A DNA stretch of 64,000 nucleotides from NCBI RefSeq assembly GCF_947495145.1, contig NZ_CANLXP010000003.1, positions 62,001 through 126,000 of the forward strand, written 5' to 3'. Under the pieces are notes generated by a model. That model saw only the letters and a list, made by a program, of their open reading frames with translations, did no database searches and had not been told where the DNA came from. Position 1 is the stretch's first letter. The number at the start of each line of letters is the position of its first letter. Below, in pieces: positions 23,510-35,438 of the stretch. The position numbers and the translations under genes were made by a program. Source of the DNA: an uncultured Arthrobacter sp. GTDB lineage: Bacteria; Actinomycetota; Actinomycetes; Actinomycetales; Micrococcaceae.

Positions 23510-24439
23510 ATGACGACACGACCAGATAGCCATTCTCAATTCGCCCCCGAGATGGATGGATTCATCCGCTATCTGTCCCACGAACGGAACCGTTCCGCTC
23601 ATACAGTGCGCGCCTACCGGGGCGATCTGGAGCATTTCGCATCTTTTTCTGCCGCCCGCGGTATCGAGACACTTGCGGAAGTTGACCTCAGGTGTCTCAG
23701 GTCCTGGCTGGCTTCCCTCGATCAGCAAGGGCTATCCCGGGCAACGATTGCCCGGCGTGCAGCAACTGTCCGTAACTTCCTGACGTGGGCAACCAGGGAG
23801 GGATTTTTGAGCGACAATCCCTCACTTCGCCTCAAAGCACCCCGACGGCAGAACAATCTCCCGGACGTGCTGTCTGTTACGCAGCTCGAACCGTTACTTG
23901 CAACCACCCAGGAGGCTGCAAGAGCGGGCGATCCTCAAGGCCTCCGCGCCTGGGCCGTGCTGGAACTGCTTTATGGATCAGGAATTCGTGTCGGCGAATT
24001 GGTGGGACTGGACATCGACGACCTGGATCACGGCAGGCGTACTGTACGTGTGCTAGGCAAGGGAAACAAGGAGCGCACTGTTCCCTACGGCGTTCCGGCC
24101 GCCCATGCCCTGAACGACTGGATAAGCCGTGGCAGGGACCAGTGGGTCACCTCACACAGTGGACCGGCGCTGTTTCTCGGACCCCGAGGGGGGCGTCTGG
24201 ATCAGCGACAGGCCCGGTCGATTGTGGAGAAGCTCCTTGCAACCGTTCAAGGCTCCGGGGCCAGTGGACCCCACGCCCTCCGTCATACGGCCGCCACGCA
24301 CCTGCTGGACGGGGGAGCAGACCTGCGGGGGGTCCAGGAGCTTCTTGGACACCGCAGCCTCGCAACAACACAGCTCTACACGCACGTATCCGTTGATCGC
24401 CTCCGGCGCAGTTATGAGCAGGCCCATCCGAGGGCCTGA
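23510..24439 (+). CDS. xerC: Tyrosine recombinase XerC-like
   Basis: Site-specific recombinase that resolves chromosome dimers at dif, with XerD. 309 residues: N-terminal SAM-like core-binding domain (about 10-105) and the catalytic domain with the complete set Arg160, Lys184, His255, Arg258, His281 and nucleophile Tyr290. ATG at 23510 with GGAGG at 23498-23502; an in-frame start 18 bases upstream lies before that signal. Location after dprA is usual for actinobacterial xerC and there are no phage genes nearby, so this is housekeeping rather than an integrase. Confidence 0.9.
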   Translation: MTTRPDSHSQFAPEMDGFIRYLSHERNRSAHTVRAYRGDLEHFASFSAARGIETLAEVDLRCLRSWLASLDQQGLSRATIARRAATVRNFLTWATREGFLSDNPSLRLKAPRRQNNLPDVLSVTQLEPLLATTQEAARAGDPQGLRAWAVLELLYGSGIRVGELVGLDIDDLDHGRRTVRVLGKGNKERTVPYGVPAAHALNDWISRGRDQWVTSHSGPALFLGPRGGRLDQRQARSIVEKLLATVQGSGASGPHALRHTAATHLLDGGADLRGVQELLGHRSLATTQLYTHVSVDRLRRSYEQAHPRA

Positions 24440-24681
24440 ACCCGCGCGGCTTAGGCAGGTGCCGTCGAAGCTCACTGAATGCTGCCGTGGTAATTACAGG
24501 GTGAGTAATCACAGTGGCGCTATCTGTCGCCATAGTGCACAATGATCGTAGTTCAATAACTGTGGACTGAGCACACTAATACCAAGCAAACTCCTACTGA
24601 GCAAGTACTTTGCAACAAGGGCAGTACCTCCGAGAGTTGAAGGTCGTTGGGGAAGACGTACCTACAGCTATGGAGGATGGA

Positions 24682-25185
24682 ATGTCTGTTGTGATGGCGC
24701 GCGGTGTTTTGTATATTCACTCAGCCCCTTCTGCGTTGTGCCCTCATATTGAGTGGGCGATCGGATCGGTGATTGACCAGCGGGTAGACCTGCAGTGGTC
24801 CCCGCAGCCTGCCGCGCCCGGAATGTTTCGGGCGGAGCTTTCCTGGGTTGCAGCGCAGGGATCGGGAGCTAAACTTGCGTCTGCCCTCAGGGGCTGGGCG
24901 CACCTGCGCTACGAGGTCACGGAGGAGCAGAGCGCCGGAGCGGATGGCGGTCGCTGGTCGCACACTCCGGAGTTGGGTATCTTCCACGCCACAACGGACG
25001 TCCACGGTAACGTCATGATCTCCGAAGACCGCATCAGATACGCCTACGAGGCAGGGGCGGGCGACCCGTCAGCGGTCTACCATGAACTGTCGCTGGCCCT
25101 GGGCGAGTCCTGGGACGAGGAACTGGAACCCTTCCGACATGCAGGAGAGGGCGCGCCCGTCCGCTGGCTGCATCAGGTCGGCTAG
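24682..25185 (+). CDS. DUF3145 family protein
   Basis: A 167-residue actinobacterial protein of unknown function. It begins MSVVMARGVLYIHSAPSALC and ends with the conserved PFRHAGEGAPVRWLHQVG-type tail. The start is ATG at 24682, five bases after GGAGG (24672-24676); in-frame starts further up lack that signal. It faces fabF, a neighbourhood common in this group, but nothing shows a link with fatty acid synthesis. About 240 bases before it hold no gene. Confidence 0.88.
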   Translation: MSVVMARGVLYIHSAPSALCPHIEWAIGSVIDQRVDLQWSPQPAAPGMFRAELSWVAAQGSGAKLASALRGWAHLRYEVTEEQSAGADGGRWSHTPELGIFHATTDVHGNVMISEDRIRYAYEAGAGDPSAVYHELSLALGESWDEELEPFRHAGEGAPVRWLHQVG

Positions 25186-25216
25186 CACGCCCTTCTGAAA
25201 CAGAACCTCTGAAAAT

Positions 25217-25258
25217 AACAAGGTCCGGGCACCAGTCAACTGGTGCCCGGACCTTGTT
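25217..25258. terminator. Bidirectional terminator, DUF3145 / fabF
   Basis: A perfect 20-bp inverted repeat (25217-25236 / 25239-25258) with two bases between the arms, GC-rich core and AACAA/TTGTT ends, between two convergent genes. Confidence 0.92.
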
Positions 25259-25283
25259 CGTTGTTCATCCAACCAACGGATCG

Positions 25284-26519
25284 CTAGACGTTCTTCACCA
25301 CGATGACCGCATTGTGACCGCCGAATCCGAAGGAATTGCTCAGGGCCACGATATCGCCTGAGGGAAGGTCACGGGCCGACGTCACTACGTCCAGCGGGAT
25401 TTGCGGGTCCTGGTTTTCAAGATTGATCGTCACCGGGGCGCGCCGGTCGTGGACTGCAAGTACCGTCATGACCGCCTCTACAGCGCCGGATGCGCCAAGC
25501 AGGTGCCCCGTCTGCGATTTTGTGGCAGAGACTGCGACCGAATCCACCTGGTCACCGAGGGCGGTCTTCAGTGCTACATACTCCGGTTGGTCGCCCACCG
25601 GTGTGGAAGTTGCATGAGCATTGACGTGCACCACGTCGGACGGCTGAACGCGCGCGTCGAACATCGCCGCCTTCAGGGCCCTGGTCGCACCGAGGCCGCC
25701 GGGATCCGGCGCTGTGATGTGATACGCATCCGCAGTCACAGATGTGCCGGCCAGCTCCCCGTAGATCCGTGCCCCCCGTGCAAGAGCATGCTCCTCTGCC
25801 TCGATCAGCAGGGCACCCGCGCCCTCGCCCATCACAAAACCGTCGCGGTCGACGTCATACGGGCGCGAGGCATGTTCAGGATCATCATTGCGGCGGGACA
25901 GCGCCTGCATGGACGCGAAAGCCGCAATCGGCATCGGGTGGATCGCGGCCTCCGCGCCGCCGCACATGACGACGTCAGCCTTGCCGGATCGAATCAGTTC
26001 AAGACCCTGATGGAGGGCCTCGGTGCCGGATGCGCATGCAGATACAGGAGTGTGTGCGCCGGCGCGTGCACCCAGATCCAGGCTTACGGCGGCTGCAGGG
26101 CCGTTGGGCATCAGCATAGGAACTGTCATGGGAAGGACCCGGCGCGGACCCTTCGCACGCAGGGTGTCCCAGGCGTCCAGCAGTGTCCAGACGCCGCCGA
26201 TGCCCGTTGCAAATGCGACAGCGAACCGGTCATGGTCTACCTCTTCGATCCCGGAATCGCGCCACGCCTCACGGGCAGCAATCACGGCGAACTGGGTGGA
26301 CGGATCCATCCGTTTTGCCTCGACGCGGGTGAGGACCTCGCTCGCCGGAGTTGAAATCTGCGCAGCGAAGGTCACCGGAAGCTCGTACTCCGCAACCCAG
26401 TCGGCCTCGATCGTTCGGGCGCCGGAGACGCCTTTGAGCGCGTTCTCCCACATGGTGGGAACATCGCCGCCGATGGGTGTCGTGGCGCCCAAGCCGGTGA
26501 TGACTACTTTGCGTGCCAT
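25284..26519 (-). CDS. fabF: 3-Oxoacyl-ACP synthase II (FabF)
   Basis: Condensing enzyme that elongates acyl-ACP with malonyl-ACP. 411 residues, full length, with the Cys-His-His triad: Cys162 in VSACASGTEAL, His in VNAHATSTPVGD and His in KSQTGHLLGASG, and the GFGGHN motif at the end. Last gene of the leftward fasR-fabD-fabH-acpP-fabF group; 93 bases separate it from acpP. Confidence 0.96.
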   Translation of the reverse strand: MARKVVITGLGATTPIGGDVPTMWENALKGVSGARTIEADWVAEYELPVTFAAQISTPASEVLTRVEAKRMDPSTQFAVIAAREAWRDSGIEEVDHDRFAVAFATGIGGVWTLLDAWDTLRAKGPRRVLPMTVPMLMPNGPAAAVSLDLGARAGAHTPVSACASGTEALHQGLELIRSGKADVVMCGGAEAAIHPMPIAAFASMQALSRRNDDPEHASRPYDVDRDGFVMGEGAGALLIEAEEHALARGARIYGELAGTSVTADAYHITAPDPGGLGATRALKAAMFDARVQPSDVVHVNAHATSTPVGDQPEYVALKTALGDQVDSVAVSATKSQTGHLLGASGAVEAVMTVLAVHDRRAPVTINLENQDPQIPLDVVTSARDLPSGDIVALSNSFGFGGHNAVIVVKNV

Positions 26520-26612
26520 GGTTCACTCTTTCGATGCGTCGTCGTTTCCGTGTGGAAGGTTGCCTGGGGAGGCGGCGATGGCGACCCTTTCGGAGGCCAT
26601 CGCCGCGCGTCA

Positions 26613-26858
26613 CTAGGACTGTGCGCTGGCGATGAAGTCCACAGCATCGCCGACGGTCTTGAGGTTCTTGACCTCCTCGTCGGGGATGCGCACGCCGAAC
26701 TTCTCCTCGGCATTGACAACGATGGTCATCATCGAGATGGAGTCGATGTCCAGGTCGTCAGTGAACGACTTGTCAAGTTCCACCGATTCGGGTGCGAGGC
26801 CGGTTTCTTCGTTAACGATTTCTGCCAATCCTGCAAGGATCTCTTCATTGCTAGCCAT
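26613..26858 (-). CDS. acpP: Acyl carrier protein
   Basis: Carries growing acyl chains on a phosphopantetheine arm. 81 acidic residues; the attachment site is Ser40 in DDLDIDSISMM (Ile follows the Ser, where Leu is commoner). ATG at 26858 lies behind AGGAG. Sits between fabH and fabF. Confidence 0.96.
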   Translation of the reverse strand: MASNEEILAGLAEIVNEETGLAPESVELDKSFTDDLDIDSISMMTIVVNAEEKFGVRIPDEEVKNLKTVGDAVDFIASAQS

Positions 26859-26940
26859 GATGGCTCCTTTTCTTCTTGTGTGTTCCGGCGGGTACCGGAT
26901 CGTTCGATCAGGCCGCGGCTTGCGGCTTGAAGCGGGAAAA

Positions 26941-27996
26941 CTATGGGAGTACAACCACCTGGGCGCCGAATACCAGTCCAGCACCGAAACCGATCTGCAG
27001 GGCTAGACCGCCGCTCAGATCGGGCTTCTCCGACAACAGGCGGTGCATTGCGAGTGGAATCGAGGCGGCGGAGGTGTTGCCGGCGTCGACGATGTCCCGC
27101 GCGACAGCCACGTGCTCCGGCAGACCCAATTGCTTCACCATCTCGTCGATGATACGGATGTTCGCCTGATGGGGGACGAATGCTACAAGATCCTCGGCCC
27201 GCACGCCCGCCGCGTCGAGAGCCTGCTGCGCGACCTTTGCCATCTCCCATACAGCCCATCGGAACACAGTGGGGCCGTCCTGGCGCATCGTGGGCCAGAT
27301 TGCGGACTCTGCGGCCGCCGCAAGGGCGTTCGGTCCCTCTGAAAGTGCTGCAAGGGACAGCTCCCGGACATCGAGCAGCGAGTGCGTCATGCGGATGGCT
27401 TCATGCTTGCTACCGTCCGAGCCCCAGACAGAGGGGCCGATTCCCGAACTTTCGGACGGGCCGATGACGACGGCGCCGGCCCCGTCACCGAGCAGGAAAG
27501 AAATAGTCCGCTCGTTGTTGTCGATGAAATCCGAAAGCTTCTCCACGCCGACCACGAGTACGTACTCAGCGGTTCCCGCGTGTACAAGGGCGTCGGCCTG
27601 CGCGATCCCGTAGCAGTAACCTGCGCAGGCCGCTGAAATGTCATAGGCGGGCGCCGGAGTTGCACCGAGGCGATCAGCAAGCTGCGCTGCCGCTGAGGGC
27701 GTGGCGTAAGGGTGCGTGACGGTTGAGACCAGCACAGCGCCCAGCTGCGAAGCCTCGATGCCGGCGTCCGCGAGGGCGGCACGGGCTGCTGATTCCGCCA
27801 TGTCGATGACACTGGTGTCCTTGCCGGCCCGGTGACGCGTGACGATACCCGTGCGCTGACGGATCCACTCATCGGAGGAATCGATCCACTGGCAAATGTC
27901 CTCGTTGGTGACGATCACGTCCGGGCGGAAAACTCCCAGCCCGTGGATGCGTGTGTGCTCGCGCAGGGTGGACTGTTTGAGGGTTGGTGTAGTCAC
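26941..27996 (-). CDS. fabH: 3-Oxoacyl-ACP synthase III (FabH)
   Basis: Starts fatty acid synthesis by condensing an acyl-CoA with malonyl-ACP; in actinobacteria it often prefers branched primers. 351 residues with Cys124 in ISAACAGYCYG, the His of FVPHQANIRI and the Asn of DAGNTSAASIP, plus the C-terminal GFGAGL. GTG at 27996 overlaps the fabD stop (GTGA), so they are coupled. Confidence 0.96.
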   Translation of the reverse strand: MTTPTLKQSTLREHTRIHGLGVFRPDVIVTNEDICQWIDSSDEWIRQRTGIVTRHRAGKDTSVIDMAESAARAALADAGIEASQLGAVLVSTVTHPYATPSAAAQLADRLGATPAPAYDISAACAGYCYGIAQADALVHAGTAEYVLVVGVEKLSDFIDNNERTISFLLGDGAGAVVIGPSESSGIGPSVWGSDGSKHEAIRMTHSLLDVRELSLAALSEGPNALAAAAESAIWPTMRQDGPTVFRWAVWEMAKVAQQALDAAGVRAEDLVAFVPHQANIRIIDEMVKQLGLPEHVAVARDIVDAGNTSAASIPLAMHRLLSEKPDLSGGLALQIGFGAGLVFGAQVVVLP

Positions 27997-28958
27997 GCGT
28001 TTCCTTCTGCGATGGGGGCGTCGGCCGGGGGAGCAGTACGGGAATGTTCTTCCATGAAGGCACGTGCGGCGCTGAGATCCTCCGGCGTTTTCACTGCCAG
28101 GCTGGCTGTTCCGCGCATCCCACGCTTCGCCAGCCCTGTCAGGGTACCTGCAGGAGGAAGTTCAAGCACCCCTGAAACGCCCATGTCCTGCAGTCGCTGC
28201 ATGCAGAGGTCCCATCGGACCGGCCTGGACACCTGCGCTATCAGGCTGTCAAGGTTGAGGTCTCCGGACGCGACCGGTTCGCCGTCGTAATTGGAAAGCA
28301 GCGTGGCAAGGGGCTCCGCGGGCGAAAGGGACGGCCGCAGCGCCTCGAGAGCTTCCACGGCGGGAGCCATATGGTTCGTATGAAAAGCTCCGGCCACCTT
28401 CAGCGGGATGACGCGCGCCTTCTGGGGCGGATCCGCAGCCAGGGAAGCCAGCTGCTCCAATGTGCCCGCCGCAACGGTCTGGCCGCCGCCGTTGGCGTTC
28501 GCAGCGGTCAGTCCGTGCCGCTTCAAGCTGGCGGCGACGTCAGCGGGGTCTCCGCCCAATACCGCGCTCATGCCTGTCGGCGTGGCAGCGGCAGCCCTGG
28601 CCATCGATTGGGCGCGGGTGCGGACGAGCGCGACGGCATCCTGCTCAGTCAGCGCTCCCGCAATGGCGGACGCCGTGAGTTCGCCCACCGAGTGGCCCGC
28701 GACGACGGTAGCGGATGTCAGCGGTGTGTCTCCGAGGAGCACGCGTGCAGCCACCAATCCGGCGGCAACTATCAGCGGTTGCGCAACGGCGGTATCGCGG
28801 ATGGTCTCTTCGTCGGAGACGGTGCCGTGCCGCAGGAGGTCTACGCCGGCAACTTCGCTGAGAGCGCCCAGATGGTCGCTTACGCCTGGGACGTCAAGCC
28901 ACGGGGTCAGGAATCCGGGGGACTGGGAGCCTTGTCCAGGGCAGAGAATTGCAAGCAC
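27993..28958 (-). CDS. fabD: Malonyl-CoA:ACP transacylase (FabD)
   Basis: Moves malonyl from CoA to ACP. 321 residues with the N-terminal CPGQGSQSPGF, nucleophile Ser90 in VAGHSVGELTA, and the catalytic His in GAFHTNHM. The start is GTG at 28958, which gives the family N terminus. The operator-like palindrome at 29026-29042 lies 67 bases upstream. Confidence 0.95.
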   Translation of the reverse strand: MLAILCPGQGSQSPGFLTPWLDVPGVSDHLGALSEVAGVDLLRHGTVSDEETIRDTAVAQPLIVAAGLVAARVLLGDTPLTSATVVAGHSVGELTASAIAGALTEQDAVALVRTRAQSMARAAAATPTGMSAVLGGDPADVAASLKRHGLTAANANGGGQTVAAGTLEQLASLAADPPQKARVIPLKVAGAFHTNHMAPAVEALEALRPSLSPAEPLATLLSNYDGEPVASGDLNLDSLIAQVSRPVRWDLCMQRLQDMGVSGVLELPPAGTLTGLAKRGMRGTASLAVKTPEDLSAARAFMEEHSRTAPPADAPIAEGNA

Positions 28959-29025
28959 GTATCAAGCTTTCCAAATGAGCGGTCAGAAGCAGGGTGTCCC
29001 GGTGCACGAAGCTCCCGAAGTCACT

Positions 29026-29042
29026 TTGTAGGAAGTCTACAA
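29026..29042. promoter_or_regulatory. Candidate FasR operator upstream of fabD
   Basis: 17-bp palindrome with arms TTGTAG and CTACAA around five bases. It overlaps the stop codon of fasR and lies between fasR and fabD. A near-identical copy (15 of 17 bases) lies upstream of fasR at 30313-30329. Binding by FasR is inferred from position and duplication. Confidence 0.7.
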
Positions 29043-30275
29043 CGAGGCAGTCCTATCCGTACGTGCCGGCGAACGATCGGCCACTCCCTTGAGGGGCGGT
29101 GCGAGCCGCCCGATGACGAGGGCAGTCTGTAGCACGAATGCCTCGCGGGGAAGCAGCGGATCCCACCCCGTGATGTCACAAACCCGCCGTAAGCGGTAGC
29201 GGACGGTATTGGCATGGACGAAGAGTTCGCGGGATGTTGCTTCCAGTGAATGACCCAGGGCGAGATACGCGGACAGGGTTTCCTCAAGACCGTTCTGTGC
29301 GCCGACGAGAGGGCGGTAGATGTTGCGCAGGAGTGCCTTGCGGGCCGTTTCGTCGCCCGAGATGACCCGCTCCGGCCACAGGTCGTCAGCGGCAACCGGA
29401 CGCGGCGCAGAAGGCCAGGCCCGGGCAGCAGTGAGGCCGGCAAACGCGGCCTGGGCTGAACTGCTTGCGGCTACCAGGGAGGCCGATTCCGGTCCGTAGA
29501 CTACCGCTCCCGGTCCGAACAGTTCGCTCAATCTGGCGTACGAGCTGTCCCGGTCCTGAACGCCTCCAAGCACCAGGATGAGCCGATCGCCCTGAATGCC
29601 GACCAGGGTGTCTTCGGCAAGGCGGCCCGTGATGCGCCGCAGCTCGTTGAGGAACATCGCATTTGGTTCGGCGGGAGAGCTGCCTACCATAACGGTGATT
29701 GGCGCCTGGGATTTCCAGCCGACGGCTGCAATCCGCGACCGCAAGGCATCCGAGCTCTCGCCCCGGAGGATGGCGTCGACCACCAGGGCCTCAAGTCGCG
29801 TGTCCCAGGAACCCCGCGTTTCAGCAGCTCGGGCATAAACGTCAGCCGCGGCGAACGCGACCTCGCGGGAATACCTGAGCACAGCTTCCCGAAGGAGTCC
29901 CTGGTCGGCATTAGAGGCGAGATCGGGGACCTGATCCTCCACCACCTGCACGACGACGCGGATGAGCTGGAGTGCCTTCTGGAGACTGATGGAACGCGTA
30001 AGTTCAGTGGGCGCTGTTCCGAACACGTCGCTCAGGACCCAGGCAGGAGAAACCGGCTTCTGGTACCAGTTGACGAAGGAGGCGATGCCCTTCTGCGCAA
30101 CCAGGCCAAGCGCGGACCGCTCGTCGGGACGCAGATTGCGGTACCAGGGGAGAGAGGAATCCAACTGCTTCAGCGTGGCCGTCGACAGAGCACCGATTTG
30201 CGTGCGCAGCCGGTCAACAGTTGCCGGATCCGGGGCGGGCAGGGACGTTCCGCGCGGGGGAGTGGGCGATGCCAT
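29037..30275 (-). CDS. fasR: PucR/CdaR-type regulator, FasR-like
   Basis: 412-residue regulator whose C-terminal 60 residues form the PucR helix-turn-helix (LEATSRELFVHANTVRYRLRR...). The N-terminal two-thirds resembles the GGDEF-like/ligand part of this family. In Streptomyces the same family, FasR, activates the fabDHPF operon; position directly before fabD supports the same role. ATG at 30275 lacks a Shine-Dalgarno but has TATGCT six bases upstream (complement of 30282-30287), which suggests a leaderless mRNA. The upstream operator copy suggests autoregulation. Confidence 0.85.
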   Translation of the reverse strand: MASPTPPRGTSLPAPDPATVDRLRTQIGALSTATLKQLDSSLPWYRNLRPDERSALGLVAQKGIASFVNWYQKPVSPAWVLSDVFGTAPTELTRSISLQKALQLIRVVVQVVEDQVPDLASNADQGLLREAVLRYSREVAFAAADVYARAAETRGSWDTRLEALVVDAILRGESSDALRSRIAAVGWKSQAPITVMVGSSPAEPNAMFLNELRRITGRLAEDTLVGIQGDRLILVLGGVQDRDSSYARLSELFGPGAVVYGPESASLVAASSSAQAAFAGLTAARAWPSAPRPVAADDLWPERVISGDETARKALLRNIYRPLVGAQNGLEETLSAYLALGHSLEATSRELFVHANTVRYRLRRVCDITGWDPLLPREAFVLQTALVIGRLAPPLKGVADRSPARTDRTASL

Positions 30276-30312
30276 GATCCGAGCATACGGCCCCGCCGAC
30301 CGAGGCTCCATT

Positions 30313-30329
30313 TTGTACGAAGGCTACAA
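30313..30329. promoter_or_regulatory. Candidate FasR operator upstream of fasR
   Basis: 17-bp site with arms TTGTA and TACAA, matching the site before fabD at 15 of 17 positions. It lies 38 bases upstream of the fasR start, about at the -35 region of the putative leaderless promoter. Confidence 0.7.
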
Positions 30330-30345
30330 ACAGTGGGTTAACAGA

Positions 30346-30387
30346 GCAGGGCCCGCCGGCTCCCTGTCTGGAACCGGCGGACCCTGC
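30346..30387 (-). terminator. Imperfect hairpin after aceE
   Basis: 18-base arms (30346-30363 / 30370-30387) with two mismatches and a 6-base loop, 20 bases beyond the aceE stop. The T-run after it is weak, so termination may be partial and aceE could read into fasR. Confidence 0.6.
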
Positions 30388-30407
30388 TCAATCCGAAACG
30401 GTGTGGG

Positions 30408-33152
30408 CTAGGACTCTCCGCCTGTGTTCCCCGTTGTGCCCGCGTTCACGTCGAGGAGTGAGTACTTCTCGATTGCCTGGCGGGGTGCATCCGAGTCGAC
30501 CTCGCCTCGCTTGGCGAGGAGTTCAAGGGTGCGTACGACGACGGAGTGCGAGTCGATCTTGAAGTACCGTCGGGCGGCGGCGCGGGTATCGGAGAAGCCG
30601 AAGCCGTCCGCTCCCAGGGTGGCGAAGTCCTGTGGGAGGAATTGCCGGATCTGGTCGGGGACCGCCTTCATGTAATCCGTGACGGCGACGATCGGCCCCG
30701 GCGCTTCGCCGAGCTGCTGCGTGACGAACGGGACGCGGGTTTCGGCGCCGGGATTGAGGAATGCCTCTTCCTCTGCGGCCAGGGCATCCCGTCGAAGCTC
30801 AGTCCATGACGTCACCGACCAGACATCGGCTGAGACGCCCCACTCTTCGGCAAGAATCTGCTGTGCTTCGAGCGCCCACGGCACGGCCACACCGGACGCC
30901 AGAATCTGCGACTTCGGAGCGTTCTCCGCCGATTGCCCATCCCTGAGCTTGTATACGCCGCGCAACAGTCCGTCGACGTCGAGGTTCTCGGGCTCAACAG
31001 GCTGAAGTATGGGCTCGTTGTACACGGTGAGGTAGTACATCACGTTCGGGTCGGACCCGGAGACAGCATTGCCGTTTCCGTACATGCGCTCGAGCCCGTC
31101 GTGAACGATGTGACCGATCTCGTACCCGTAGGCCGGGTCGTACGTGACCACGGCGGGGTTGGTCGAAGCGAGGATGGGGGAGTGTCCGTCGGCGTGCTGC
31201 AGGCCTTCACCGGTGAGGGTGGTGCGCCCTGCGGTCGCGCCGATGATGAACCCACGGGTCATCTGGTCCCCCGCGGCCCAGAAGGAGTCCCCGGTGCGCT
31301 GGAAACCGAACATCGAGTAGAAGACATAAATGGGAATCAGCGGCTCGCCCTGAGTGGCGTATGCCGTTCCGGCAGCTGTGAATGCCGCAACTGATCCTGC
31401 CTCGTTGATACCTGCGTGCAGGATCTGGCCCTGGATCGATTCCTTGTAGGCGAGCACAAGGTCGCGGTCTACCGACAGGTAGTTCTGGCCGTTGGGATTA
31501 TAGATTTTTGCCGTTGGGAAGAACGAGTCCATACCGAACGTGCGTGCTTCATCCGGAATGATCGGCACAATCCGCTTGCCGAACTCCTTGTCCCGCATGA
31601 GGTCCTTCAGGAGCCTCACGAATGCCATGGTTGTCGCGGCCTGCTGCTTGCCGGACCCACGCTTGGCTACCTCGTAGGTCTTGTCTCCGGGAAGGGCAAC
31701 CTCGGCATGCTTGGTGCGCCGCTCCGGCAGGTAGCCGCCAAGCGCCTTGCGGCGTTCGTGCAGGTATTGGATCTCCGGTGCGTCGGCTCCAGGGTGGTAG
31801 TACGGGGCGTTGTAGAGGTCATCGTCGATCTGTTCGTCGGTAACAGGAATGCGAAGGTAGTCGCGGAATGCCTTCAGATCGGCGTTCGTGAGTTTTTTCA
31901 TTTGGTGGGTGGCGTTGCGGCCTTCGAAGTGGGGGCCGAGGCCGTAGCCCTTCACGGTCTTCGCGAGGATGACGGTGGGCTTGCCCTTGAATTCCGTGGC
32001 TGCCTTGTACGCGGCGTAGACCTTGCGGTAATCATGCCCGCCGCGCTTCAAGCCCCACACCTGGTCATCGGTCATGTCCGCCACGAGATCCTTCGTGGCC
32101 GGGGTCTTACCGAAGAAGTGATCGCGCACGAACCCACCGGATTCAGCCTTGTAGGTCTGGTAGTCCCCGTCAGCGGTTTCGTTCATGATCTTCACCAGGT
32201 CCCCGCTGGTGTCCTTCTCAAGCAGGTCATCCCACTCCCGGCCCCAGACGACCTTGATCACGTTCCAGCCCGCACCACGGAAGAACGCCTCGAGTTCCTG
32301 CATGATCTTCCCGTTACCCCTGACCGGCCCGTCCAGGCGCTGCAGGTTGCAGTTGATCACGAAATTCAGGTTATCCAGCCCGTCATTGGCTGCCAGCTGC
32401 AACAAGCCGCGGGATTCGGGTTCGTCCATCTCCCCGTCGCCGAGGAACGCCCACACCTGCTGCTCGCTGGTGTCTTTCAACCCACGGTTCTGCAGATACC
32501 GGTTGGACTGGGCCTGATAGATGGCGTTCATCGGCCCGATGCCCATCGACACCGTGGGGAACTCCCAGAACTCCGGCATCAACCGCGGGTGCGGGTACGA
32601 GGACAACGCGTGACCGGCCTTGGACTTCTCCTGCCGGAACCCGTCAAGATCCTCCTCGGTGAGCCGGCCTTCCAGGAACGCCCGCGCATACATGCCCGGG
32701 GACGCGTGTCCCTGGAAGAAGATCTGGTCCCCGCCGCTTGGGTGGTCCTTGCCCTTGAAGAAGTGGTTGAACCCGACCTCATACAGGGTCGCCGCGCCGG
32801 CGTAGGTGGAGATGTGACCGCCGACGCCGATCTCCGGGCGCTGCGAACGGTGCACCATAACCGCGGCATTCCACCGCATCCACGCCCGGTACTTCCGCTC
32901 GATCTCCTCATCGCCGGGGAACTCAGGCTCCTCGTCAACAGGGATGGTGTTCACATAGTCAGTCGTTACAACGCTGGGAAGGCCCACGGACCGGCCGCCG
33001 GCACGCGCGAGCAGACGCCCCAAAACCTCACGGGCACGCTCGGATCCACGCACATCAACCAGCTGATCAAACGACTCAACCCACTCAGCCGTCTCCTCCG
33101 GATCCGAATCCCCACCGGTACCCGAACCCACAATCCCCTGATCAGCAACCAT
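30408..33152 (-). CDS. aceE: Pyruvate dehydrogenase E1 component, homodimeric type
   Basis: Thiamin-diphosphate enzyme that decarboxylates pyruvate and feeds acetyl groups to E2. 914 residues, the single-chain E1 of actinobacteria. Visible: [20 protein letters not shown] near residue 110, the ThDP motif beginning [10 protein letters not shown] and ending [12 protein letters not shown], the pyrimidine region with [11 protein letters not shown], and [17 protein letters not shown] at 33152 is preceded by GGGAGGG. It lies upstream of fasR-fabDHPF on the same strand, a link from pyruvate to fatty acids. The same neighbours occur in Mycobacterium tuberculosis. Confidence 0.96.
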
Positions 33153-33579
33153 GCCAAACCCTCCCAATCCGCAGATTATGTCTGCGACGTCTACGACTTC
33201 GTGCTTCGGGCCGTTGCTCGTCGAAGCGGTCAGAATCCGATCGGCGTTCGCCGGACCTATGGATTCACTGGAACACTCTAGCCCTGCGGGGTGTTGGATG
33301 CGTAGCTGAATGGGTACTGCCGCGGCAGGTTACGCCTAGAGGGTAAGCCGATGCCCCTGACGTTTCTCCCGTCACCCCTCCTTCGAGGCTGCGCGTGAAG
33401 GAGGGGTGACTCGCCGCCGTCGTGCCGGTCTGCCGCGTACTCGGGTTGAAGCGTGGCGCTAAAGGGTGTTGGCTGGTAATAATGCATATCAACGTACTGT
33501 GGAACCGGGGTCAGAGGCACCATCGAGACAGCCACAGCAATAAGCGCAGCGACAATTGCAGTTTTTCGGGAGGAAAAAA
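33153..33579. other. Intergenic region between divergent aceE and DUF3052 genes
   Basis: 427 bases with no convincing gene. It must hold both promoters. A perfect inverted repeat is at 33371-33410 (entered separately). AATAAT-like sequence at about 33477-33483 could be a -10 for the rightward genes, but no matching -35 is clear. I see nothing else. Confidence 0.6.
33371..33410. repeat. Perfect 14-bp inverted repeat in the aceE/DUF3052 intergenic region
   Basis: Arms 33371-33384 and 33397-33410, 12-base loop, no T-run on either side. It could be a 5' leader hairpin or a regulator site; an intrinsic terminator is unlikely. Confidence 0.8.
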
Positions 33580-33999
33580 GTGAGCGAGGCCGAAGCCGCC
33601 ACAGCAACAAGCGTGGCGGGCAAACTGGGTTTCAAGGACGGCGACCTCGTTCAGGAGCTTGGGTACGACGAGGATGTCGATTTCGACTTCCGTGCTGAAC
33701 TGGAAGACGAGATCGGTTCCGAGCTCCTTACGGAGGATGACCAGGACGTTGTCGACGGTGTAATCCTGTGGTGGCGCTCCGACGACGGCGACCTGGTGGA
33801 TGCACTCGTTGATTCGCTGACCAGTCTGGATGACGGCGGTGTTGTATGGCTGCTGACACCGAAATCGGGCCGGGACGGGTACGTTCCTCCATCTGAAATT
33901 CAGGAGGCAGCACCGACCGCCGGGCTTCACGCCACCTCCTCAGCGGGGGTCTCCCGCGACTGGGCGGCAACCAGGCTAGTAGCGCGCCGCAAGCAGTAG
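33580..33999 (+). CDS. DUF3052 family protein
   Basis: A 139-residue acidic actinobacterial protein of unknown function. Core: GKLGFKDGDLVQELGYDEDVD, then VDGVILWWRSDDGDLVDALVD and the C-terminal VSRDWAATRLVARRK. GTG at 33580 follows GGGAGG (33568-33573). It abuts the peroxiredoxin start with no gap. The order aceE / DUF3052 / ahpE is also found in mycobacteria. Confidence 0.9.
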   Translation: MSEAEAATATSVAGKLGFKDGDLVQELGYDEDVDFDFRAELEDEIGSELLTEDDQDVVDGVILWWRSDDGDLVDALVDSLTSLDDGGVVWLLTPKSGRDGYVPPSEIQEAAPTAGLHATSSAGVSRDWAATRLVARRKQ

Positions 34000-34485
34000 G
34001 TGGCAAATTTCCCTGCGCCCGGCGACGCGGTCCCGGGGTTTGAACTCCCCAATCAGCATGGGGAGCTTGTCAGCCTGGACGCATTGCACGGTTCCTCCGC
34101 GGTGCTCGTGTTTTACCCTTTCGCGTTCTCCCGCGTCTGCACCGATGAACTGGACGAACTGCAGCAGAATCTCGAGCAGTTTCAGCGGCGTGGTGTGAGA
34201 GTTCTCGCTATCTCGATCGACCATCGATACGCCCTTCGAACGTACGCAGAGGAGAGGGGTTACGAGTTCGACCTCCTCGCTGACTTCTGGCCTCACGGTG
34301 CGGTGGCCGAACGGTACGGGGTTCTGGATACCTCCGATGGCTATGCGCGCCGAACCACATTTTTCGTTGACCCCACTGGTTGCCTGACCTCCAGAATCGA
34401 GGCTCCCCTTGGCCAGGGCCGCTCCTTCGCGGATTACTCGACAGCGCTTCGCGGCCTGCCCCTACAGGCTGAACTGCCGCAATGA
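34000..34485 (+). CDS. AhpE-like peroxiredoxin
   Basis: Thiol peroxidase of the AhpE/Prx family. 161 residues with a thioredoxin fold; peroxidatic Cys47 lies in YPFAFSRVCTDEL (P-x3-S-x2-C, Ser in place of the usual Thr), and the DFWPHGAVAERYGV block typical of AhpE is present. GTG at 34000 follows directly on the previous stop. The stop overlaps the Sir2 start (ATGA), so the three genes form an operon. Confidence 0.9.
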   Translation: MANFPAPGDAVPGFELPNQHGELVSLDALHGSSAVLVFYPFAFSRVCTDELDELQQNLEQFQRRGVRVLAISIDHRYALRTYAEERGYEFDLLADFWPHGAVAERYGVLDTSDGYARRTTFFVDPTGCLTSRIEAPLGQGRSFADYSTALRGLPLQAELPQ

Positions 34486-35438
34486 CTTCCTCACCGCTGC
34501 CGCATGCCTCCTCCCTCCCCGGCTTCGGAGTGACCGGTTTCGCCAGGGAAGACGGTGCGGCGGCCAGGACCCTCTCGACAGAGCAGGTGGCGAACCTTCG
34601 TTCTGTCGTCGATCTTCTCGCGGGCAAGCGCCTTGCCGTCCTGACCGGAGCCGGTCTCAGCACAGACTCCGGCATCCCGGACTATCGTGGACCGAATTCC
34701 GTTCCTCGCAATCCAATGACCTACCAGCAGTTCGTTGGTGATGATGCGCTGAGACGGCGCTATTGGGCGCGAAACCACGTCGGCTGGCACCACCTTCGAC
34801 GAGCGGACCCCAACAGCGGTCACCGTGCCCTGGCGCAGATGGAGCAGCGCGGACTCCTGGCTGGACTGATCACCCAGAATGTGGACCGGCTGCACTCAAT
34901 GGCAGGCAGTACCAATGTGGTGGACCTGCACGGAACTTATGACCGCGTGGTGTGTCTTGGCTGCCGCAGTTCCTTCAGCCGCCAGGAGGTTGCGGGCCTG
35001 CTCGAGCGCCTGAATCCCGGGTATCTCGAGCGCACAGGCAACGCGGGCGACGTGGCGCCGGATGCGGACGCTGATGTCGATGACACCTCAGACTTCACCA
35101 TTGCGCCATGCCCGGTGTGTGGTGGAATGCTCAAACCGGATTTCGTGTATTTCGGCGAGAATGTGCCCAAGGACCGGGTTGCGCGGGCCTACGCGATGGT
35201 GGATGACTCGGGCGCCCTCCTGGTGGCCGGATCGTCGCTGACAGTGATGAGCGGCCTTCGTTTTGTCCGGCATGCAGCGAAACAGCAGAAGCCGGTTGTC
35301 ATCATCAACAGGGGCCAGACGCGTGGTGACGAGTTCGCATCGTTGAAACTCGAGTTGGGGGTTTCGGAGGCACTGGCGTACCTCGCGGAGGCCCTGCCGG
35401 GGCTTGAAAGAGAAGACGCCGGTCGGTCCCCGCACTGA
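34482..35438 (+). CDS. Sir2-family NAD-dependent protein deacetylase
   Basis: 318-residue sirtuin. Motifs: GAGLSTDSGIPDYRG (NAD loop, residues 57-71), TQNVDRLH (131-138), catalytic His150 in LHGTYDRV, zinc cysteines Cys158/Cys161 and Cys210/Cys213, and the NAD-binding VAGSSLTV. It has a roughly 35-residue N-terminal extension and an acidic insert (DADADVDD) within the zinc domain. The ATG overlaps the peroxiredoxin stop. Substrates unknown; acetyl-CoA synthetase is the usual bacterial one. Confidence 0.93.
   Translation: MTSSPLPHASSLPGFGVTGFAREDGAAARTLSTEQVANLRSVVDLLAGKRLAVLTGAGLSTDSGIPDYRGPNSVPRNPMTYQQFVGDDALRRRYWARNHVGWHHLRRADPNSGHRALAQMEQRGLLAGLITQNVDRLHSMAGSTNVVDLHGTYDRVVCLGCRSSFSRQEVAGLLERLNPGYLERTGNAGDVAPDADADVDDTSDFTIAPCPVCGGMLKPDFVYFGENVPKDRVARAYAMVDDSGALLVAGSSLTVMSGLRFVRHAAKQQKPVVIINRGQTRGDEFASLKLELGVSEALAYLAEALPGLEREDAGRSPH

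Follow-up and report, generated by a model that had tools for sequence, protein, structure and literature searches.

Paired palindromes before fabD and fasR in Arthrobacter are probable operators of a MabR-like activator, with like sites before acc and bioY genes

The closest described systems are PucR-type regulators encoded next to fabD. In the accessible part of one report (PMC5541348), mycobacterial MabR (Rv2242) is an activator that recognizes TTTTGT(N)9ACAAAA upstream of fabD, its sites lying at −87 and −147 relative to the transcription start, and its affinity responds to long acyl-CoAs. The same text gives S. coelicolor FasR (SCO2386) as the MabR orthologue, with 42% identity, and describes highly similar repeats around −67 and induction of the operon. 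Initially, overexpression had led to MabR being described as a repressor, according to the available portion of another report (PMC12845086), so the regulatory sign can mislead. The name FasR is also used for other proteins. Corynebacterium FasR (accD1, fasA, fasB), as the partly available sources describe it, shares with the protein studied here the name and the control of acc or fas genes, which here is predicted, but it is TetR-type, of another and unrelated protein family, and has another motif. In similarly partial sources, mycobacterial FasR (Rv3208, fas-acpS) shares the name and the control of fas but belongs to a different protein family and is no relative of ours; we take it to be of the TetR type.

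The stretch of DNA analysed here (the window) comprises 64,000 nucleotides from an uncultured Arthrobacter sp. (assembly GCF_947495145.1, contig NZ_CANLXP010000003.1, positions 62,001 to 126,000). Its minus strand carries, in this order, aceE (30408-33167), fasR, fabD, fabH, acpP, and fabF, fasR being immediately upstream of the fabD operon on the same strand. The features are as follows.

30313..30329, minus strand: predicted operator for FasR in the fasR promoter region, minus-strand sequence TTGTAGCCTTCGTACAA (TTGTACGAAGGCTACAA as given at the coordinates), with its centre near −46 when the TATGCT below is taken as the −10
30282..30287, minus strand: putative fasR −10 hexamer, TATGCT, located 25 nt past the operator
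29037..30275, minus strand: fasR, PucR-type regulator of 412 aa from ATG 30275, with GGDEF-like domain and PucR HTH_30
29026..29042, minus strand: predicted operator for FasR preceding the fabD operon, minus-strand sequence TTGTAGACTTCCTACAA (TTGTAGGAAGTCTACAA as given at the coordinates)
27993..28958, minus strand: fabD, malonyl-CoA:ACP transacylase (PF00698), with which the presumed target operon begins
26941..27996, minus strand: fabH, KAS III (PF08541, PF08545)
26613..26984, minus strand: acpP, acyl carrier protein, its true start probably inside the ORF (PF00550)
25284..26519, minus strand: fabF, KAS II (PF00109, PF02801)
24610-25185, plus strand: DUF3145 protein, convergent with the end of fabF (PF11343, E 5.4e-74)

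An Rfam search of 24000-34500 gave no match at the gathering cut-offs. The FasR protein contains PF13556 (E 1.2e-18) and PF17853 (E 3e-11), the PucR HTH_30 and GGDEF-like domains, and among solved structures it matched MabR/Rv2242 over its whole length (C-terminal part, 9f80, E 6.9e-52; N-terminal part, 9fb1, E 1.6e-20). By this homology, its N-terminal domain is expected to have the globin fold of MabR. The two proteins share a globin-like N terminus, a GGDEF-like domain, and a PucR HTH, as well as a gene directly upstream of fabD and the same palindrome. S. coelicolor FasR, as far as its partly available description goes, also has its gene beside fabD, is an activator of fabD-fabH-acp-fabF, and has a predicted site at about −67. 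The FasR of the window appears to be the orthologue of both. The closest among the best 80 of 574 loci encoding a FasR relative (named loci below) is that of Arthrobacter subterraneus, 95% identical over FasR. Two other loci carry an exact fabD site under unexpected record titles, namely, Acidobacteria bacterium (a MAG, FasR 73% identical to that of the window) and Sporosarcina beigongshangi (67%); for both, the record labels or the assemblies look wrong. In one further genome (G014), whose assembly shows 4% contamination, FasR is encoded at two loci (85% and 84% identity to the FasR of the window), probably because a second strain is present.

The sequence-only reading had proposed that two near-identical 17-bp palindromes are operators of FasR, and both were found in the sequence at 29026-29042 and 30313-30329. 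They are identical at 15 of 17 positions and their 5-bp arms are perfect inverted repeats, just as it had stated. The first site does overlap the TAG stop codon of fasR (29039..29037, minus strand), 67 bp before the GTG start of fabD (28958). The second is upstream of fasR as claimed, although its distance from the likely fasR ATG (30275) is 37 bp and not the 38 bases originally given. Both contain the exact core TTGT-N9-ACAA and part of the outer T/A of the MabR palindrome; the bioY site described below has the outer T/A in full. Exact copies of TTGTA-N7-TACAA numbered 2 in the window, whereas 100 dinucleotide-preserving shuffles averaged 0.00. For the 17-mer itself, when up to 3 mismatches were allowed, the count was 2 compared to a shuffle mean of 0.11. 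When 2 mismatches were allowed in TTGTA-N7-TACAA, the window showed no excess (4 found, shuffle mean 4.09), so only the exact form of this motif is informative.

Conservation in relatives, named beforehand as one of two tests of the proposal, was evident, with the fabD and fasR sites both present in 17/17 same-genus relatives. Of the named loci, 77 have the fabD site and 61 have the fasR site with at most one mismatch. Across the class, TTGT-N9-ACAA precedes fabD with at most one mismatch in 24/30 loci (a manual count, own genome included) and, in a second set, in 25/29, where it was exact in 19/29. The controls for the second set were much lower: the reversed pattern matched with at most one mismatch in 2/29 loci and exactly in 0/29, and coding windows of the same length matched in 12/290. 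These two kinds of control were relied on because the random-window control run for the named loci contains true sites (58 exact in 1,600 windows). The exact loose fasR site was seen in 19/30 (manual count) and 5/29 class loci. In family f14, four sites read TTTGT-N9-ACAAA or longer, which is the MabR form. A FasR match was present in 65 class genomes, and these counts cover 59 of them, six being left out for a contig edge or a partial match. Because the loci share descent, the counts are not independent trials and indicate constraint.

This pattern bears on the possibility that the sites reflect chance, or conservation of coding sequence rather than of an operator. In favour of a coding origin, the stop codon of fasR is part of the fabD site in the window, an overlap also seen in 12/77 named loci, and in 2/77 the site falls inside the reading frame. 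However, it lies entirely 3′ of the stop codon in 63/77, the arms are conserved while the flanks have diverged in the same-genus alignment rows, and the shuffles give none. Conservation in intergenic positions refutes this explanation, to which we would assign a vanishingly small chance.

Between the operator and fabD (28959-29025), same-genus relatives also have in common an AGCTT[C/G]GT element and, before the fabD start, TTTGGAAAG. The AGCTT and AAGCT in this fabD mRNA leader could pair.

Copies of the motif elsewhere in the 3.55-Mb genome were few. Only four exact sites were found, before fabD, fasR, accBC (biotin carboxylase), and bioY (biotin importer), and in each of two close relatives (G002 and G004) the exact copies likewise number four, before the same four genes. 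The accBC site is between a biotin carboxylase gene with a biotin-carrier domain and a gene that we take to be maf (L002). The bioY site is between bioY (PF02632, E 5.3e-35), which is followed by an ABC-type ATPase gene, and an ABC-F gene (L001). A fifth copy with one mismatch, TTGTAGGTGTTCTACAG, was found 126 bp before accD, a carboxyl transferase gene (PF01039, E 7e-195) and the sole gene of its kind found in the genome at E ≤ 1e-150. The nearest NCBIfam matches are methylmalonyl-CoA decarboxylase alpha for accD and pyruvate/biotin carboxylases for accBC; these are below the curated cut-offs, and therefore sequence does not prove whether acetyl- or propionyl-CoA is the substrate. A paralogue of accBC had no site in the five loci looked at. 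One-mismatch matches elsewhere are mostly background because the genome total at this level (22) is below that of the reversed-pattern control (38). Five of the 18 one-mismatch sites were read, and these were at accD, at nrdR, and, for the other three, inside reading frames of unrelated genes.

At L001:1501-1567, the bioY operator also precedes the divergent ABC-F gene, by 14 or 47 bp according to which start codon is used, and it might influence this gene too. The nrdR copy (L005:1501-1517), TTGTAGTTTCACTACAT, is just upstream of the gene and occurs in G002 as well; it may be an NrdR box that resembles the FasR motif by chance.

The acc and bioY sites were followed outward from the genus. Within it, the accBC site was exact in 17/17 loci, own included, with one genome (G012) giving no accBC match at the cut-off; the bioY site had at most one mismatch in 18/18; and the accD site had at most one in 15/18 and two in the other three. 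In the family, where only the closest loci were read, the frequencies at one mismatch or fewer were 26/28 for accBC (61 genomes searched), 25/29 for accD (41 genomes searched), and 8/28 for bioY (61 genomes searched; 13/28 at two or fewer), compared to 0/560 coding-window controls each for accBC and bioY. One accBC locus with an incomplete flank (L265) was counted as a miss here and left out of the spacing analysis below. Outside the family, the accD site was found with at most one mismatch in 1/8 loci (2 of the 8 genomes are without FasR), the strict accBC motif in 0/8, with two exact loose sites in one genome (G025), and the strict bioY motif in 0/9. The loose accBC motif was found there in 5/29 loci compared to 1/29 for the reversed pattern, and the acc sites were mostly absent even with FasR present. 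From these distributions, the fabD site is likely ancestral and fasR autoregulation widespread but patchy, the accBC and accD sites look like a family trait, and the bioY site appears to be strongest in the genus.

Family f29, with genomes of 7.9-9.7 Mb, is a separate case. In all four of its genomes (L382, L383, L385, L386), a GTAGGGA-TCCACAAA-like near-match with one mismatch to TTGT-N9-ACAA is found ~207-220 bp upstream of the best accBC match; other outside families are mostly without it. FasR control of acc genes may extend to this family.

The frequent absence of acc sites from outside genomes that do have FasR would agree with a different regulator of the same genes binding the sites, their adjacency to fasR being a chance of operon position. 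FasR binding here is predicted from sequence, and C. glutamicum, in the partial sources available, controls accD1 and fas genes by a TetR-type protein also called FasR. However, the motif equals the experimentally supported MabR operator. Moreover, FasR-bearing loci of the class usually carry it before fabD, and FasR-less genomes do not: of 17 genomes without a FasR match (cut-offs 1e-3 or 1e-60), 11 had a fabD match and five, from two families, were usable, and in this small sample no site was found upstream of fabD, the best having 2-3 mismatches of 8. Another regulator is therefore quite improbable, and FasR is the preferred candidate for the protein that binds.

The distance from the site to the next TAnnnT (the −10 core) was compared at loci with a site, that is, 44 of 47 for accD and, of 80 each, 61 for fasR and 77 for fabD. 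Some trends were apparent. First, TAnnnT was at +22 from the site in 43/44 accD loci. The bioY loci, 46 in all, were similar: 26 have at most one mismatch, with TAnnnT at +22 in 24, and 31 have at most two, with TAnnnT at +22 in 29 and at 21-26 in 31/31. Second, it was at +24/+25 in 51/61 fasR loci, and, at the predicted −10 of fasR, CGTATGCT was present in all 18 same-genus rows listed. Third, it was at +60/+61 in 44/44 accBC loci. The background is ~0.01 per offset on average. The candidate −10 hexamers are TAGACT for accD, TAATCT for bioY, and TAGGCT for accBC, beside TATGCT for fasR. Finally, the −10 of fabD is less clear: of 77 named loci, 27 had TAnnnT at +46/47 and 21 at 76-78, 34 had one or the other, and the window has neither. 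With the first base of TAnnnT as −12, the predicted site centres are −43 for accD and bioY, −45/−46 for fasR, and −82 for accBC, and −67 for fabD where TAnnnT is present, which is the value quoted for S. coelicolor FasR. The predicted −43/−46 geometry at three promoters differs from the −87/−147 that the partly available MabR description gives. These near-fixed positions relative to TAnnnT would correspond to an activator geometry and, as far as sequence can tell, point to activation. They also make the autoregulation of fasR that had been suggested plausible, since the fasR site is at a near-fixed distance from TAnnnT.

The predicted −10 TATGCT ends 6 nt before ATG 30275, which implies that the fasR mRNA is probably leaderless. 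An upstream start at ATG 30311, abutting the operator, is a disfavoured alternative. In its favour, an ATG directly after the fasR site is in frame in 40/61 named loci and open in 38. However, the fixed spacing would by itself place an ATG in frame there (24 + 6 + 6 = 36 nt), an in-frame stop is present between site and protein in six loci (L113, L115, L118, L126, L155, L160), and in further loci the site-adjacent ATG is out of frame.

The same geometry could be taken to mean that FasR activates fabD and the acc genes but represses at some promoters, repressing fasR by blocking polymerase at the site next to −35 and so providing homeostasis in place of positive feedback. The fasR site ends 24-25 nt before TAnnnT in most loci, where a bound dimer could exclude polymerase, and translation from ATG 30311 would put the start codon right next to the site. 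MabR overexpression also lowered fasII transcription, according to the accessible part of that report (PMC12845086). On the other hand, accD and bioY have nearly the same geometry and poor −35 boxes, the best match to TTGACA being at most 3 of 6 in the loci scored (43 for accD and 22 for bioY; the latter were taken from 24 hand-picked loci, two loci with at most one mismatch being left out), which suggests that these promoters are activator dependent. For fasR, too, none of the 53 loci scored has a −35 with more than 3 of 6 matches. Repression at some promoters is the less likely reading. A promoter/terminator scan of 28900-30500 found nothing, so the standard sigma-70 pattern misses the proposed promoters.

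Our preferred reading, with a probability of about 0.8, is that both palindromes are operators of the PucR-type FasR encoded between them, which most likely acts as an activator of the fabD, accBC, accD, and bioY units and probably of fasR. Conservation in relatives and identity with the published MabR operator support what the sequence-only reading had called a strong candidate operator. A FasR dimer would bind the TTGTAS-N5-STACAA palindrome; the fabD site would drive fabD-fabH-acpP-fabF, and the fasR site would govern fasR's own promoter. At fasR, accD, and bioY, the operator would sit just upstream of the −35 position and replace a poor −35 box, whereas at accBC it would act from further upstream (~−82) and at fabD perhaps from ~−67. 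Bound FasR would then most likely recruit RNA polymerase at promoters with weak −35 boxes, so that biotin import, the production of malonyl-CoA, and FAS II rise together, probably along with fasR itself. We infer FasR binding, activation, and positive autoregulation from these patterns, and an acyl-CoA-type ligand is plausible as the signal by analogy with MabR.

The operator type is already known, and the acc and bioY sites probably widen the predicted regulon beyond fabD and fasR. MabR controls FAS II for mycolic acids, whereas the operator of the window type also precedes accBC, accD, bioY, and fasR. For S. coelicolor FasR, the partly available description names only the fabD operon as a direct target. 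The literature searched, with few subscription papers and some of it available in part, named no acc or bioY target of a PucR-type FasR/MabR, which is no proof of novelty. The accessible text of a 2024 paper (PMC11602165) states that regulators specifically controlling acetyl-CoA carboxylase transcription are still elusive and that the sole confirmed acc-promoter binders are TetR-type, on some but not all acc operons.

Since the same site precedes the fab, acc, and biotin-import genes, the entire supply line of malonyl-ACP is probably turned on by a single protein. The chances are about even that FasR of the Micrococcaceae is a single-input master activator of biotin import, the sole AccD-type carboxyltransferase (at E ≤ 1e-150), the biotin carboxylase, FAS II, and itself, with the −35 contact replaced at accD, bioY, and fasR and the regulon built stepwise on an ancestral fabD site. 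A PucR-type activator is thus predicted to link both carboxylase genes, the importer of the biotin that they need, and FAS II. The near-fixed spacing between operator and promoter would make the mechanism directly testable in a harmless soil Arthrobacter, which may serve as a model for MabR-type activation.
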